Origin: JBGPLH01 sp041486365 [NCBI: Thermodesulfobacteriota bacterium]
GTDB taxonomy: Bacteria; JAUYMQ01
DNA: 5,695 nucleotides
NCBI GenBank assembly: GCA_041486365.1
Contig: JBGPLH010000226.1
Span: 1-5,695 of the forward strand
Direction of reading: 5' to 3'
Shown here: positions 61-5,695 of the stretch, piece by piece
Layout of the letters: the number at the start of each line of letters is the position of its first letter
Position numbering within the stretch: the stretch's first letter is position 1
Position numbers and translations under genes: made by a program
The notes under the pieces: model-generated
Told to the model about the DNA's origin: nothing
Seen by the model: the letters and a program-made list of their open reading frames with translations, nothing else
Database searches by the model: none

Positions 61-630
61 TCAGGCGGGATCTTTTCGCCCCCGCTGCGCGCGGACGATC
101 TCGTCGCGCAGGGCGAGGAAGCGCGCGTTGGCCGGCTCGTATGCCAGGGCCATCTTCACGTTGCGCAGGGCGGCCGGGAGGTTCCCCTTGTGGCGCTCCG
201 CCTCCGCCATCTGGATGAACTCGCGACCCTGGGGCGTCTTGCCGATGGCGTCCACCTGCGCCTGCCGTGCCTGCCGAGCGGTTTTCTCCGTATAGCGGAG
301 GCCGCCCTCGGACGAGGAGAGCGCCGTGTCGTAGAGCGGGCGTTTCTCGGCGTGGCGCAGCACCGCGTAGGCTTCCTTGATCCGCTTGGCGATGGCGTTC
401 ACGGCCTCCCGCAGCCCCGTGTCATCGGAGGCGAGATAGCGATCGGGATGGAACGCACGCGATTCGCGGTGGTAGGCGGCGCGGATGGCCTCCGAGGAGG
501 CGGCGCGGTCGAGGTGGAGCACCTGATAGTAGTCGAGATCGTCGATTGTGCCGGCCAGGGCGCGGATTTCCGCCGGGGAGGGGCCACTGGCCCGTCCCTG
601 GGCGCCGGCGGCCGGTGCGGACAGGTTCAT
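61..630 (-). CDS. J-domain co-chaperone with C-terminal TPR-like motif
   Basis: A 189-residue protein. J domains stimulate the ATPase of a partner Hsp70 and deliver clients to it. The J domain spans about residues 33-103: it opens with DYYQVL, has the catalytic HPD tripeptide at 61-63, and ends with a helix III/IV region (KRIKEAYAVL...RPLYD). There is no Gly/Phe segment, no CxxCxGxG zinc finger and no DnaJ C-terminal beta domains, so this is a class C (type III) J protein. Residues 135-168 fit one TPR repeat: G149, L151, A154, V158, A161 and P166 fall at consensus positions 15, 17, 20, 24, 27 and 32. The first about 25 residues are Ala/Gly/Pro-rich and probably disordered. The ATG at 630 overlaps the Hsp70 stop by one base (TGATG) and is preceded by a GGGAGAGG ribosome site; a TTG at 633 is a less likely start. 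The overlap implies stoichiometric production with the upstream Hsp70, its likely partner. Client unknown. Confidence 0.93.
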   Translation of the reverse strand: MNLSAPAAGAQGRASGPSPAEIRALAGTIDDLDYYQVLHLDRAASSEAIRAAYHRESRAFHPDRYLASDDTGLREAVNAIAKRIKEAYAVLRHAEKRPLYDTALSSSEGGLRYTEKTARQARQAQVDAIGKTPQGREFIQMAEAERHKGNLPAALRNVKMALAYEPANARFLALRDEIVRAQRGRKDPA

Positions 631-2414
631 CAAGCCTCTCCCGTGTCTTCCTTTTCGCTGTCCTCGGGCTCCGCTTCCATGCCGCCCAGCAGATCGAGCA
701 GCTCGGGGCTCGGGCCGAGCTCCTCGCCCGAGGCCAGCGGCGAGAGGTCGGGGACGTCGTCGTCGAAGGGAGAGTAGGCGGGGACGGGCGACCCGGCGGG
801 CGCGGGCGCGTCGGCCGCGCCTTGCGTCGCGGAGGCTTCGCCCGCGCGGACCTCCTGGTTACGGACGGCGTCCCGGATCTCCTCCTCGGTGAGCCCGCTC
901 GACAGATGCACCGTCGTCGTCTGCCGGCGGCCGGTCTCCGCGTCCTTCGCGATCACGTTCACGATGCCTTCCGGGCTGATCTCGAAGGTGACGTCGATCG
1001 CCACTTCCCCGCGCTTCGCGGGCTTGAGCCCCGGGAACTCGAACTCGCCGAGCAGCTCATTCTCCGCGGCGACGCGGCTCTCGCCCTGGTAGATCCGGAT
1101 CGAGACCCCTTCCTGGTTGTCGCGTGTGGTGGTGAAGGTGCGCGTCTGCTCGATGGGGATCGGGGTGTTCTTCTCGATGATCGTCTCCGCCAGCCCGCCG
1201 GTGATCCCCAGCCGGAGCGAGAGGGGCGTCACGTCGAGAAGGAAGGTCTTCTGCTCGGTCTCCATCAACGAGGCCGCGTGGATCGCCGCGCCGGTCGCCA
1301 CGACCTCCTCAGGGTCGAGGTTGCACTGAGGCTCCTTGCCGAAGAAGCTCTGCACCGCTTCCCTGATCATCGGGAGCCGCGTCGGCCCGCCCACGAGGAT
1401 CACGGCGTCGAGGTCGGTGGCCATCAGTCCCGCCGAGCGCAGCGCCTCCTCGCACACCTTGAAGGTGCGATCGGTGAGGTCCTGCGTGAGAGTCGCGAAT
1501 TCCTGCCGTGAGATGTTCAGCCGGATCCCTATCATCTCCGGCTCCGCATAGTACAGGTCCGGGATGTCGATCGTGGCCGTCTCCTGGCTGCTCAGCGCCA
1601 TCTTGGCCTGCTCGGCGGCGGTCTTGAGCTTCTGCAGTGCGATCGGATCGCGCCGCAGGTTGATCTCGTGCTTCGCCACGAAGCCGTCGGCCAGGTGATC
1701 GAGCAGTCGATCGTCGAAGTCCTCGCCTCCCAGGAAGGTGTCGCCGCCCGTGGCGAGCACCTCGAAGATGTCCTTGCCGATCTCCATGATCGAGATGTCG
1801 AAGGTCCCTCCGCCGAGGTCGTAGACCGCGATCCTCCGGGTGAGATCCTGCCCGTAACCGTAGGCGAGCGCCGCGGCGGTGGGCTCGTTGATGATCCGGA
1901 GCACCTGGAGCCCCGCGATGCGCCCGGCGTCCTTCGTGGCCTGCCGCTGGTTGTCGTTGAAGTAGGCGGGCACCGTGATGACGACCCGCTCCACGGGGCC
2001 GCCGAGCCGGAGCTCCGCGATCCGCTTCATCTCCCGGAGGATCAGCGCGCTGATCTCGGGGATGCTGTACACCGTGCCGTGCACCTGGACGCGGGCGTCG
2101 CCATTGGGGCCCGGTACGATGGCGTACGCGCAGACGGCCCGGGCCTTCTTCACCTCGTCGGACTCGAACACGCGGCCGATCAGGCGCTTCGCCGAGAAGA
2201 TGGTGTTCCGGGTCCGCTCGATCACGTGATCCCGGGCGGGAGAGCCGACCTCGACGGTCCCGTCCTCGGAGAAGGAGACGACGCTCGGCGTGATGCGCTC
2301 TTCCCGCTCATTGGCGAGTACCCCCGGGTTGCCGTCCATCACCGCGCAGACGCAGGAAGTGGAGGTCCCGAGGTCGATCCCGACGGCGACGTCTTTGCTG
2401 CTGGTGGCGGACAT
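630..2414 (-). CDS. Hsp70 (DnaK-family) chaperone lacking the helical lid
   Basis: A 594-residue ATP-dependent cytosolic chaperone; E. coli DnaK has 638 residues. The nucleotide-binding domain is complete: phosphate-1 GIDLGTSTS (12-20), K76 in [19 protein letters not shown] (176-186), phosphate-2 [10 protein letters not shown] (199-208, including T204 and D206), and adenosine motif [11 protein letters not shown] (338-348). The interdomain linker FLLDVTP is at 391-397. The substrate-binding beta domain runs to about 503, keeping DNQ and YQGE motifs. Numbering stays within about one residue of DnaK up to helix A ([15 protein letters not shown], 507-521), so nothing is lost before it. After that, helices B-E are absent. 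Residues 522-550 are Ala/Pro/Ser-rich, and the last 44 residues hold 16 Asp/Glu against one Lys. The start ATG follows AAGGGGA with good spacing. The 80 bp upstream shows no convincing sigma-70, sigma-32 or CIRCE element, so read-through from ddl is possible. It is probably a specialised paralogue, not the housekeeping dnaK; this is inferred from the missing lid and unusual partner. Confidence 0.96.
635..642 (-). promoter_or_regulatory. Ribosome binding site of the J-domain gene, inside the Hsp70 coding end
   Basis: GGGAGAGG on the minus strand sits four bases before the ATG at 630, within the last codons of the Hsp70 gene. Together with the TGATG stop/start overlap it favours the ATG at 630 over the TTG at 633, and it suggests re-initiation by ribosomes finishing the Hsp70. 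Confidence 0.5.
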
Positions 2415-2494: not shown

Positions 2495-3334
2495 TCAGGC
2501 GCCGGAGGCCGCCGGGGGGTCAGGCCGCGTTCGCGGGCCGGGCGGGTCGCCGGACCCCCGGGAGGCCTCGAGATCGAGGTAGAGGAGCGTGCCGCCCACC
2601 ACGCCGAGCGGCATGCAGAGCAGGCTGAGGCCCGGCACGAAGATCGTGAGGAAGAGGGAGCTCCCGAAACCCGCCATGAGGGCGCGGTGACGGAAGACGG
2701 TCCGCCGCCGTTCGGCGAACGGGAGCCGCCGCCGCGACATCGCGTAGTCGGTGAAATCGAGCGCCACGAAGAGGACCCCGAAGGCGACGGAGATCGTCGC
2801 GTAGGCGACGCTCCCGGCGACCGGAATGAGGTTGAGCGGGAGAAGGGCCGCCTGCACGAGCACGAAGAAGGCCGTGCGCCTGAGCTCGTCGCCCACGGCG
2901 CGACGGGCTTCCCGTCCCACGGCCAGGAGGCCCTTCCCGCCGTCGTCCGGTGCGCGCAGGCCGAGCCGGCGCTCCGTCGCCGCGCTGAGCAGCTCGTTGA
3001 AGGGGGAAGCGATCACGTTGCCGACGAGCGTGAAGGTGAACCACACGACGAGGAGCGCGGCGATGGCGAGGAGGAGCGCGAGGAGCCATCGGAACGCCCG
3101 GGCGAGCCAGTAGAGCGGGATCCAGTACCACGCCTGCGGGCGCGCCACGTGGGCCCAGGCCGTGAGGAGCCGGACCAGGTCGTCGAACCAGAAGGCGAAG
3201 GCGCCGACCGCGACCGCGAAGATGGCGAGGTTGATGAGGAAGGGAAGGAGCGCGTAGCGGCGTAGCGCGGCGTCGGCGCGGATCAGCCTGAAGGCGAGGA
3301 CGGGGTAGAAGAGGCCCCTCGCGAAGGCGGCCAT
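2495..3334 (-). CDS. EI24/CysZ-like integral membrane protein
   Basis: A 279-residue inner-membrane protein that resembles the EI24 (PF07264) family, which includes the bacterial sulfate permease CysZ (about 250 residues). Hydrophobic segments lie near residues 27-50, 82-107, 153-193 and 222-254. Family-like features are the ASPFNELLSAATERRLG stretch (109-125), the LDFTDYAMSRRRLPFAERR stretch (192-210) and the final hydrophobic FVPGLSLLCMPLGVVGGTLLYLDL segment (232-255). About 24 C-terminal residues are Pro/Gly/Arg-rich and probably disordered. The ATG at 3334 was chosen because the family-like sequence (FARGLFYPVLAFRLI) starts right there. An in-frame GTG at 3400 would add 22 Ala/Pro-rich residues, and neither start has a good ribosome site. 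The gene lies 68 bp after ddl and 80 bp before the Hsp70. No cysteine-biosynthesis gene is nearby, so sulfate transport is not supported by context and the substrate is left open. Confidence 0.88.
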   Translation of the reverse strand: MAAFARGLFYPVLAFRLIRADAALRRYALLPFLINLAIFAVAVGAFAFWFDDLVRLLTAWAHVARPQAWYWIPLYWLARAFRWLLALLLAIAALLVVWFTFTLVGNVIASPFNELLSAATERRLGLRAPDDGGKGLLAVGREARRAVGDELRRTAFFVLVQAALLPLNLIPVAGSVAYATISVAFGVLFVALDFTDYAMSRRRLPFAERRRTVFRHRALMAGFGSSLFLTIFVPGLSLLCMPLGVVGGTLLYLDLEASRGSGDPPGPRTRPDPPAASGA

Positions 3335-3402
3335 CGCGCCGCGCGGAAGGGTGGGAGCCGGGCTCGCGACGGTCGGGCCGGGAGCGGCCGGGGCGCCCAC
3401 GC

Positions 3403-4569
3403 CTAGCGCGAGCGGCGCAGGCGCGCCCTTTCGTCGTGGCGCGAAAGCCCGAGCGCGATCAGGCGGTCGATCAGCCGGGGGTAGGGGAGGCCGGAGGCCT
3501 CCCACATCTTCGGGTACATGCTGATCTTCGTGAAGCCGGGCATCGTGTTCACTTCGTTCAGGTAGATCTTCCCGGTGGACCTGTGCAGGAAGAGATCGAC
3601 GCGGGCGAGGCCGGAGGCGTCCACGGCCTGGAAGGCGGCGATGGCGATGCGTTGCACCTCGCGGGCCGTGGCCGCATCCACGGGGGCGGGGATCAGCAGC
3701 TTCGATCCCTCCATCAAATACTTCGCCTCGTAATCGTAGAACTCCTTGCAGGGGACGATCTCGCCGGGCACGCTGGCCTCGGGCTCATCATTGCCGAGCA
3801 CGGCGCATTCGATCTCACGGGCGGGGACACCTTCCTCCACGAGGATCTTCTCGTCGTAGGAGGCGGCCAGGTCGAGCGCGGGCGCGATCTCCCGCTGCTC
3901 GTGGACCTTCGAGATGCCGACCGAGGAGCCGAGATTCGCGGGCTTCACGAAAAAGGGCCAGGCGAAGGCGTCCGCGATCTCCTTTATCACCGCCTCGGGC
4001 TCCCTGCGCCATCGGTTCGCGGGGATCATCCGCCAGCCGACTTGTGGAAGACCCGCCTGCGCGAACAGGCGCTTGGCGATGTGCTTGTCCATTCCGACCG
4101 AGGAAGCGAGCACGCCGCTCCCCACGTAGGGGAGCCCGGCCATCTCGATCAACCCCTGCACCGTGCCGTCCTCGCCGAAAGTGCCGTGGAGCACGGGGAA
4201 GATCGCGTCAATGGGGTTCCGGCTCCAGGCGCAGGGGCCGCCCCCCGCCGGATCCGACAGGCGAACGAGCCCCTTGAACCCGGGCGCGCCCCAGAGGGCG
4301 ACCTCTACCGACTCCGGCCCGAAGGCCCTGTCGGGCTCGGGCGGGCCGTCCACGGCGGGGGTGCGCCAGATCCCGTCCTTCGTGATGCCGACCGGGACGA
4401 CCCGGTACTTCCTGGGATCCGCCGCCTGCATGACCGAGCGGGCCGAGATCACCGAGACCTCGTGCTCGCCGGAGCGACCCCCGAAGAGGAAGCCCACCGT
4501 GAGCTTAGCTCTTGAATCCTGGCGGCCCGCGCTTCGCTCGGGACCTCCGGCCTGTCCAGCCTGACTCAT
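3403..4569 (-). CDS. ddl: D-alanine--D-alanine ligase (ATP-grasp)
   Basis: A 388-residue cytosolic enzyme that joins two D-alanines using ATP, giving the dipeptide that MurF adds to the peptidoglycan precursor. N-terminal domain: GGRSGEHEVSV (30-40, with E35 matching the first-substrate Glu of DdlB), HGTFGEDGTVQG (128-139) and YVGSGVLASSVGMDK (148-162). ATP-grasp part: KPANLGSSVGISK (209-221), omega loop EFYDYEAKY (276-284) and Mg-binding EVNTMPGFT (339-347). Tyr at the end of the omega loop (Y284, DdlB Y216 equivalent) is typical of D-Ala-D-Ala, not D-Ala-D-lactate, ligases. The protein is longer than DdlA (about 364) because of about 20 polar N-terminal residues and a basic C-terminal tail. 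The reading frame stays open upstream to 4788, but the conserved domain begins near residue 22, so ATG 4569 is preferred; ATG 4599 (398 residues) is the alternative. It is first of four co-directional genes and is not beside mur or fts genes here. Confidence 0.96.
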   Translation of the reverse strand: MSQAGQAGGPERSAGRQDSRAKLTVGFLFGGRSGEHEVSVISARSVMQAADPRKYRVVPVGITKDGIWRTPAVDGPPEPDRAFGPESVEVALWGAPGFKGLVRLSDPAGGGPCAWSRNPIDAIFPVLHGTFGEDGTVQGLIEMAGLPYVGSGVLASSVGMDKHIAKRLFAQAGLPQVGWRMIPANRWRREPEAVIKEIADAFAWPFFVKPANLGSSVGISKVHEQREIAPALDLAASYDEKILVEEGVPAREIECAVLGNDEPEASVPGEIVPCKEFYDYEAKYLMEGSKLLIPAPVDAATAREVQRIAIAAFQAVDASGLARVDLFLHRSTGKIYLNEVNTMPGFTKISMYPKMWEASGLPYPRLIDRLIALGLSRHDERARLRRSR

Positions 4570-4739: not shown

Positions 4740-5695
4740 ATGGAACGTGACCCACGGGCGGCGACGGCCTCTGCCGAGCCCGTTCCAAGAAGCCTCACGC
4801 TTGGTGAGCGGCTCGTTCGCCGCGGCGCGATCACGCGCGAGCAGCTCGAGGAAGCCCTCGAGGCTCAGACGATCTTCGGAGGGCGTCTCGGGACGAATCT
4901 GCTCGAGCTCGGCTACGTCGACGAGAAGACCCTCAACCAGGTCCTCTCGGAGAAGCACCACGTCCCGACGCTGGACGTAGGCGTCGTCGATCCCGCGCCC
5001 GATCCCAAAGTACTCGAGCTGATCCCGCAGGATCTCGTCAGGAAGTATCGCGTGTTCCCTTTGCGCCGGGAGAACAAACGCCTCCACGTGTTGATGGAGG
5101 ACCCGTCGTTGCTCGCGCAGATCGACGATCTCTCCTTCCGGACGGGACTCATCATCAGCCCCTGCGTCGCGAGCGAGGCGCGCATCGCCTACCTCCTCGA
5201 GCGCTACTACAACGTCCGCCGGGACCAGCGCTACGTGCTGCTGGCCGACAATCAAGGCCGGCCGATCCGGGAGAAGCCCACGCCGCGGGAGGTCGAGAGC
5301 GCCTCCGAGGGGATGCGGCTCAACTGGTTCGCGCCCGTCGACCCGGACAAGAAGCAGGAGGACGAGGTCTGGAACCTCTCGGACGAGGACGAGCTGTGTC
5401 CGGAGGATCTCCACCTCGAGCTGATGGGCGGCGACAAGCAGGACGGCTCCTCCGAGGGAACGTCGCCTTCACAGGCGGCGAAACCGGACCTCCGCCAGAT
5501 CGATATCGCGCGCAACCCGGAGGCGCTGCCGACGCTCCCCCACCTGAAGGGCGGAACGCTCGGCCGGCGTTTGCAGAAGGCGGCCCGACGTCTTGCGACC
5601 GGGGGACCCGCCGCACCGCCGCTCACGGTGAAGGAAGCCGTCGCCCGCCTGGCGCAGGTCGAAAGCCGCGACGAGGTCGCGGAGATTCTTCTGAA
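4740..5695 (+). CDS. MshEN-domain protein (predicted cyclic-di-GMP binding), 3' end outside window
   Basis: An open frame of 318 codons that continues past the right edge. Residues 17-159 form an MshEN domain (PF05157; N-terminal domain of GspE/PilB/MshE ATPases). Two copies of the 24-residue cyclic-di-GMP motif are visible, at 20-43 and 49-72, separated by exactly five residues; deviations are Thr for Arg at the first position and Lys for Gln at the last. The second half (PQDLVRKYRVFPL, MEDPS, IDDLSFRTG, ERYY) also fits the family. Residues 160-295 are a long, probably disordered linker with an acidic stretch (about 201-240) and a basic patch (276-285). From about 295 a new folded segment begins (LTVKEAVARLAQVESRDEVAEILL) and is cut off. 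In GspE or PilB the ATPase would normally follow the MshEN domain; no Walker A motif or ASDIH-like sequence appears. It is therefore better read as a signalling or regulatory protein than a secretion ATPase. ATG 4740 has only a weak GGGA upstream; TTG 4728 is possible. Confidence 0.85.
   Translation, partial: MERDPRAATASAEPVPRSLTLGERLVRRGAITREQLEEALEAQTIFGGRLGTNLLELGYVDEKTLNQVLSEKHHVPTLDVGVVDPAPDPKVLELIPQDLVRKYRVFPLRRENKRLHVLMEDPSLLAQIDDLSFRTGLIISPCVASEARIAYLLERYYNVRRDQRYVLLADNQGRPIREKPTPREVESASEGMRLNWFAPVDPDKKQEDEVWNLSDEDELCPEDLHLELMGGDKQDGSSEGTSPSQAAKPDLRQIDIARNPEALPTLPHLKGGTLGRRLQKAARRLATGGPAAPPLTVKEAVARLAQVESRDEVAEILL

Follow-up and report, generated by a model that had tools for sequence, protein, structure and literature searches.

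We analysed a window of 5,695 nucleotides from the Thermodesulfobacteriota bacterium JBGPLH01 sp041486365 (the whole of positions 1 to 5,695 of contig JBGPLH010000226.1, assembly GCA_041486365.1) and observed that it encodes an Hsp70-family protein, P0001, in which a disordered tail stands in place of the helical lid of the substrate-binding domain (SBD). P0001 (594 amino acids; 630..2414) was recognised as an open reading frame (ORF) with a Pfam HSP70 and a DnaK match. P0002, a J-domain protein of 189 amino acids (61..630; ORF and Pfam), follows it, and the ATG of the J gene overlaps the Hsp70 stop codon in the sequence TGATG (632-628). These genes, and all features of the window given below unless stated otherwise, lie on the minus strand. 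The intact motor of P0001 and the adjoining likely helper suggest a specialised fast-releasing chaperone, not a broken gene. With moderate confidence, we read P0001 as a genuine, ATPase-competent lidless Hsp70 paralogue with a dedicated J-partner, which would handle its clients fast and loosely.

P0001 is a member of the Hsp70 superfamily, with its nucleotide-binding domain (NBD), linker and beta substrate-binding domain (SBDbeta) above the Pfam cut-off: PF00012 covers residues 10-535 (profile positions 1-529 of 599) at 604 bits against a cut-off of 20.6. The best solved relative is E. coli DnaK (2kho), which aligns over query residues 11-524 with few gaps. An earlier note on this DNA had P0001 following DnaK almost residue for residue up to helix A; the alignment is indeed nearly gap-free, but the identity is only ~48-49%. 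The whole model matches the fold of 7kzu with a Z of 56.2 and a root-mean-square deviation (rmsd) of 1.6 over 520 residues. In the DnaK alignment, the NBD spans residues ~1-386 (1257..2414), with D14, K76, E177, D199 and T204 conserved, and is followed by the interdomain linker KTFLLDVT at 389-396 (1227..1250) and by SBDbeta at 397-508 (891..1226), which is also delimited by the model and the fold match. Against curated cut-offs, P0001 misses the canonical DnaK models (641.7 versus 648 for PRK00290; 608.6 versus 822.55 for TIGR02350); it has the catalytic residues and hydrophobic linker of a canonical DnaK and lacks the helical lid B-E. Membership in HscA was rejected on the same kind of cut-offs (525.3 versus 620 and 522.9 versus 708.55) and on the absence of the HscA-type GrpE-loop deletion; the GrpE-signature loop of P0001 is in place, with differing residues. 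HscC was rejected on the alignment, which shows neither an NBD deletion matching DnaK 76-101 nor an SBD insertion.

Similarity to DnaK ends with helix A. The structure model, built from an alignment of 46 sequences in which the other rows were deliberately cut near the end of helix A, predicts a helix at 510-528, so that residues 509-528 (831..890) hold helix A and no more than the opening turns of helix B. Beyond it, the predicted local distance difference test score (pLDDT) is below 50 over 525-594, and the model contains one short, low-confidence helix at 570-576. Counted from residue 522, what follows helix A is 73 residues of low complexity, first Ala/Pro/Ser and then acidic, and the last 44 contain 16 Asp or Glu and one basic residue; the translation confirms these counts of the earlier note. 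By model and composition, the segment replacing lid helices B-E is a disordered Ala/Pro, then acidic, tail at 529-594 (633..830) with a net charge of −16. It contains a hydrophobic patch at 569-578 (681..710), where the short helix is predicted, and ends in EKEDTGEA, not EEVD.

The lid is not hidden in another reading frame. Inspection of all six frames of 600-900 by eye showed no lid-like sequence, and when the minus-strand frames were compared with E. coli lid helices B-E, 458, 471 and 183 of 500 shuffles reached the observed score. The G+C content of the tail at codon positions 1, 2 and 3 is 0.82/0.55/0.88, compared with 0.73/0.51/0.87 in the J gene, and is thus coding-like. We see neither lid helices B-E nor any trace of a frameshift. 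The earlier note's exclusion of a frameshift is borne out by the TGATG overlap, the coding-like tail and the other frames of 600-900. Its claim that helices B-E were lost agrees with model, frames and composition as far as the lid itself goes; since the helix extends to 528, the first turns of helix B are perhaps kept.

The motor looks complete. The DnaK alignment shows the hydrophobic linker conserved, together with those phosphate-binding and catalytic positions that were checked, and Hsp70 ATPase competence is the best reading of the sequence. R173, N176 and D394 are conserved in 45 of 45 aligned Hsp70 rows; they match R167, N170 and D393 of DnaK, which we take to be its J-contact positions. 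The nucleotide cleft is altered. R56 and E264 of DnaK, which form the upper of the two salt bridges that close the cleft, correspond to D62 and T265 here (2229-2231 and 1620-1622). The upper salt bridge is therefore lost, at positions where the residue type is kept in 44/45 and 43/45 of the aligned rows, and the lower one is kept (R61, E268). Presence of the lower salt bridge only is associated with faster nucleotide release (PMC8215388). The HscA of locus L001 also has Asp at the first upper position; at the second, it has Thr in one alignment and not in the other.

The groove differs as well. As the earlier note had stated, both arch positions are Thr by alignment: T405 (1200..1202) stands at DnaK M404 and T430 (1125..1127) at A429. 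None of the 44 of 45 rows accounted for has Thr at the first of these positions, and the second is Ala in 43 of 45. At a further groove position, where all 45 aligned rows have Thr, P0001 has Ile. The net charge of SBDbeta is −4, at the acidic end of the 45 rows (mean 0.2, range −4 to 2).

To place the tail among Hsp70 C-termini, we compared 118 complete Hsp70 frames, drawn from 117 loci that included HscC and HscA; five frames that ran into contig ends were skipped. This sample is biased, as is the narrower one given below: viral contigs make up 81 loci, the others come from relatives of an Obscuribacterales genome, from genomes of the Propionivibrio phylum and from E. coli, and none is known to come from the phylum of the window. 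In some rows, locus L109 among them, the match stops short of residue 523, whose position was then extrapolated. Frame lengths from the searches for relatives run from stop to stop and were excluded from the lid count. P0001 has 71 residues after 523; 75 or fewer were found in three of the 118 frames (E. coli HscC with 63, L109 with 65 and L115 with 61) and 98 or fewer in 14, most of which are still lid-like by eye. A narrower count of 102 loci, mostly drawn by DnaK similarity and without L003, L012 (HscC) and L013 (HscA), had three frames running off contig ends and 99 complete ones, the shortest with 99 and the median with 111 residues after the 523-equivalent. This count overstates how rare the length is, and 16 distant short or partial frames were then added; in these 16 stretches, picked for that property, several distant Hsp70s have 61-96 residues after the 523-equivalent, mostly lid-like by eye. 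The net charge after residue 523 is −17, with the others at −24 to +8 across the 118 frames. What sets the tail apart is its Pro+Gly content: of the 60 residues after 523, 28% are Pro or Gly and 10 are Pro, whereas no other frame exceeds 15% or 5 Pro there, and the median number of Pro is 0.

The runner-up in Pro+Gly content (L109/L122) is an Hsp70 39% identical to P0001, from a genome related to an Obscuribacterales genome (G029; 7411-9162, plus strand of that locus). Past helix A, it has a low-complexity stretch that does not resemble a lid by eye and may end in an amphipathic helix (GAKIMEMINSILSAIGIKKN). Its tail is not acidic, with a net charge of 0. As this protein also looks lidless, loss of the lid with a disordered replacement seems recurrent. 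The 17 kb read around its gene contain no HPD-bearing frame.

The partner gene encodes a J domain with HPD at residues ~31-103 (322..540; Pfam DnaJ 33-101, E 6e-13), preceded by a 30-residue N-terminal extension in which no LP-like motif was found by eye. A single-sequence model of P0002 has a mean pLDDT of 56.4; it is below 50 over 5-70, and the J domain is poorly modelled without an alignment. The C-terminal part is predicted with pLDDT values, taken in 10-residue blocks, of 87-96 over 131-180 and 71 over 181-189, and forms a basic, TPR-like helical hairpin plus helix at 131-186 (73..240). Its fold matches those of TPR proteins, among them 4bt8 (Z 9.9, rmsd 0.9 over 53 residues) and three co-chaperones: Cpr7 (Z 11.1, rmsd 6.2 over 68), P58IPK and CHIP. 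Such Z values are common among helical repeats and the Pfam TPR models match below cut-off only, so we call this end no more than TPR-like. Residues 130-189 have an isoelectric point of 10.5. Because this end is basic and the Hsp70 tail (net −16) acidic, we considered a bacterial analogue of the tail-to-TPR pairing of eukaryotes: the tail would dock on this end and tether the two proteins to each other, and the client would be held on the groove by the J-protein in place of a lid. We hold this docking proposal to be speculative and distinctly doubtful. Of a multi-TPR carboxylate clamp, one TPR-like unit only is predicted confidently (131-186).

The mechanism that we favour for a lidless Hsp70 with its own J-partner can be outlined as follows. 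The J-protein would select and deliver one or a few clients and trigger ATP hydrolysis. Lacking a lid, the groove of the beta-sandwich would grip the client loosely and exchange it fast, and the role would be holding or remodelling instead of general refolding, with specificity coming from the J-protein. The disordered acidic tail would probably serve solubility and may provide a docking site or a charged surface, to which the basic end of the J-protein could bind. The Hsp70-J pairing, the client and what the tail does are inferred, as are the kinetics, for which we rely on engineered lidless Hsp70s. For engineered lidless DnaK, peptide on and off rates 10-100 times faster are given (cited in PMC7083937), and the weak and brief client binding expected by the earlier note would agree with these published kinetics. 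A lidless C. elegans Hsc70 is described as keeping its ATPase and J-protein binding and losing refolding (PMC3315512).

Relatives were sought to see how widely this form occurs. A similarity scan of the genome contigs gave three loci: HscA and DnaK, both as full-length frames, and the 3.4-kb contig L003, a 26% match from which the motif filter gave no frame. P0001 matches 60 of 60 relatives of G002, the best by E-value being 48% identical among the matches listed. At E 1e-100, it matches 390 of 398 genomes of the G001 phylum, where the best by E-value is 51% and the second 53% identical, again among the matches listed. None of the matches listed in either set is of orthologue grade. P0002 and the SBD segment had no match among viral contigs, and the best 30 of 54 plasmid J-protein records cover at most 44% of P0002, essentially the J domain. 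An origin of the Hsp70 from a virus or plasmid was rejected, with best matches among those listed of 49% in phages and 54% in plasmids; the 55 phage and plasmid matches listed (of 276 plasmid and 44 phage records) all end at or before query residue 526. Among the papers listed by our searches of the open-access literature, none described a bacterial Hsp70 with an acidic tail replacing the lid.

Several observations weigh against a dedicated, adapted lidless machine. The length and net charge of the tail are within the range of other Hsp70 C-termini, and the tail, being low in complexity, could be neutral. A lid can be lost where no J gene lies nearby, as the lidless-looking L122 Hsp70 lacks an HPD frame in the 17 kb around it, and P0002 could serve another Hsp70 of the same cell. 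No orthologue was found among the matches listed, and lid loss, tail and pairing may not be conserved. A search of P0002 against 398 genomes of another phylum at E 1e-10 gave no relative and, without a positive control, shows nothing.

We consider it unlikely that P0001 behaves like the yeast protein Ssz1, whose human relative is HSPA14, as a static subunit in a stable J-protein complex, its groove filled by a pseudo-substrate (its own tail or the J-protein N-terminus), acting as a regulator or as a relay to another Hsp70. P0001 shares the lack of a lid, and a Pro-rich Hsp70 tail and the 30-residue J-protein extension are on hand. Ssz1 of the yeast ribosome-associated complex is lidless, pairs with the J-protein Zuo1 and has its groove filled by the proline-rich LP-motif of Zuo1 (PMC7083937). 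As described there, it cannot hydrolyse ATP and its linker is detached, whereas the catalytic positions and linker of P0001 look canonical; the J-protein N-terminus also lacks an LP-like motif by eye. The same LP-motif in the Ssz1 groove is the precedent (PMC7083937) for a tail that acts in cis, with a Pro-rich segment or the patch at 569-578 filling the client-free groove as an inhibitor or lid substitute. The patch with its low-confidence predicted helix at 570-576 would suit this role, but its flanks are acidic, as is SBDbeta with its net −4. DnaK-type grooves disfavour acidic flanks, and we think a cis-acting tail very unlikely.

A plainer history is that helices B-E were deleted in frame, which would have fused helix A to the ordinary acidic DnaK tail and changed little beyond weakening binding. 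The tail motif DDDVPD (551-556; 747-764) resembles DDDVVD in the C-terminal tail of E. coli DnaK, and the comparison of the two tails gave a score of 34, reached by 27 of 2000 shuffles, uncorrected for several comparisons. Ordinary DnaK C-terminal tails are also acidic (PMC8215388), which the census charges reflect. The tail may thus be an ordinary DnaK C-terminal tail left by lid deletion, a weak reading of the sequence: the match is short, and the same test against L004, L002 and L001 is weaker, with the score reached by 299, 29 and 294 of 500 shuffles. The arch, the upper salt bridge and the groove flanks are also changed, which suggests adaptation and makes a plain deletion quite unlikely in our view. 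The remaining explanation, a sequencing or assembly artefact or a decaying gene, draws on there being one sequence and no second copy. It is highly improbable, as the frame is intact, the tail coding-like, the overlap with an intact J gene a precise TGATG and the frames tested free of a lid.

The neighbouring genes complete the picture of the locus. On the minus strand, a D-Ala-D-Ala ligase gene and a gene for an EI24/CysZ-like membrane protein (together 2495-4569) lie 5' of the Hsp70 gene on the same strand, giving the order D-Ala-D-Ala ligase, EI24/CysZ-like protein, Hsp70, J-domain protein, with 80 bases between the end of the EI24 gene and the Hsp70 start. Scans for Rfam families, tRNAs, promoters and terminators gave no result on the Hsp70-J operon. 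Long antisense open frames cross the Hsp70 and J genes on the plus strand (13-777 and 546-1511), as expected at ~66-71% G+C. Divergent from this cluster is the start of an MshEN-domain gene (4740-5693, plus strand); MshEN is a cyclic di-GMP-binding domain of the kind found at the N-terminus of PilB/MshE. Hsp70s tied to type IV pili are described in StkA of M. xanthus (PMC4319316) and cyanobacterial DnaK1 (PMC9239167), and the adjacency of the MshEN gene is only suggestive of a pilus link for P0001.

Compared with known systems, P0001 shares with E. coli DnaK the domain order to helix A, ~48% identity and an acidic disordered C-terminal tail. DnaK differs in having helices B-E, a Met/Ala arch and the upper salt bridge, and its dnaJ lies 88 bases downstream, in contrast to the TGATG overlap here. 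HscC and HscA, too, are specialised Hsp70s of bacteria, each with its own J-protein and an altered lid (PMC8215388), but both keep a lid, and HscC has an NBD deletion that P0001 lacks. Other likenesses were drawn by description. MXAN_2747 of M. xanthus is a bacterial Hsp70 outside PRK00290 with a much shorter SBDalpha, in an account that describes it without a C-terminal tail, unlike the long acidic one here; P0001 narrowly misses PRK00290, as do the proteins classed there as cl35085 but not PRK00290 (PMC8265645). The J-proteins MXAN_2745 and MXAN_3015, numbered close to the Hsp70 genes MXAN_2747 and MXAN_3016, are reported to bind MxDnaK1 (PMC11019930) and may also pair with these neighbouring Hsp70s. 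StkA (MXAN_3474) is an Hsp70 of 540 residues and is described as not found heat-induced; its gene is followed by an SCP2-like gene and not, in that account, by a J-protein gene (PMC4319316). From its length, we suspect that StkA has no full lid. Plant cytosolic Hsp70T1 Type III is a natural lidless Hsp70 and proposed holdase, though eukaryotic (PMC10687569).

Lidless or short-lid Hsp70s are thus already known (Ssz1, plant Type III T1, MXAN_2747), and P0001, set beside them by description, adds a variant. The lid is taken as central to the trapping of clients by Hsp70, and a natural lidless Hsp70 with a canonical motor and a J-partner would show the rest of the machine alone. As it was shaped by selection and not by an experimenter, P0001 would serve such tests better than a truncated E. 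coli DnaK. In conclusion, P0001 and its J-protein would form a parallel in bacteria to Ssz1 and Zuo1 of yeast.

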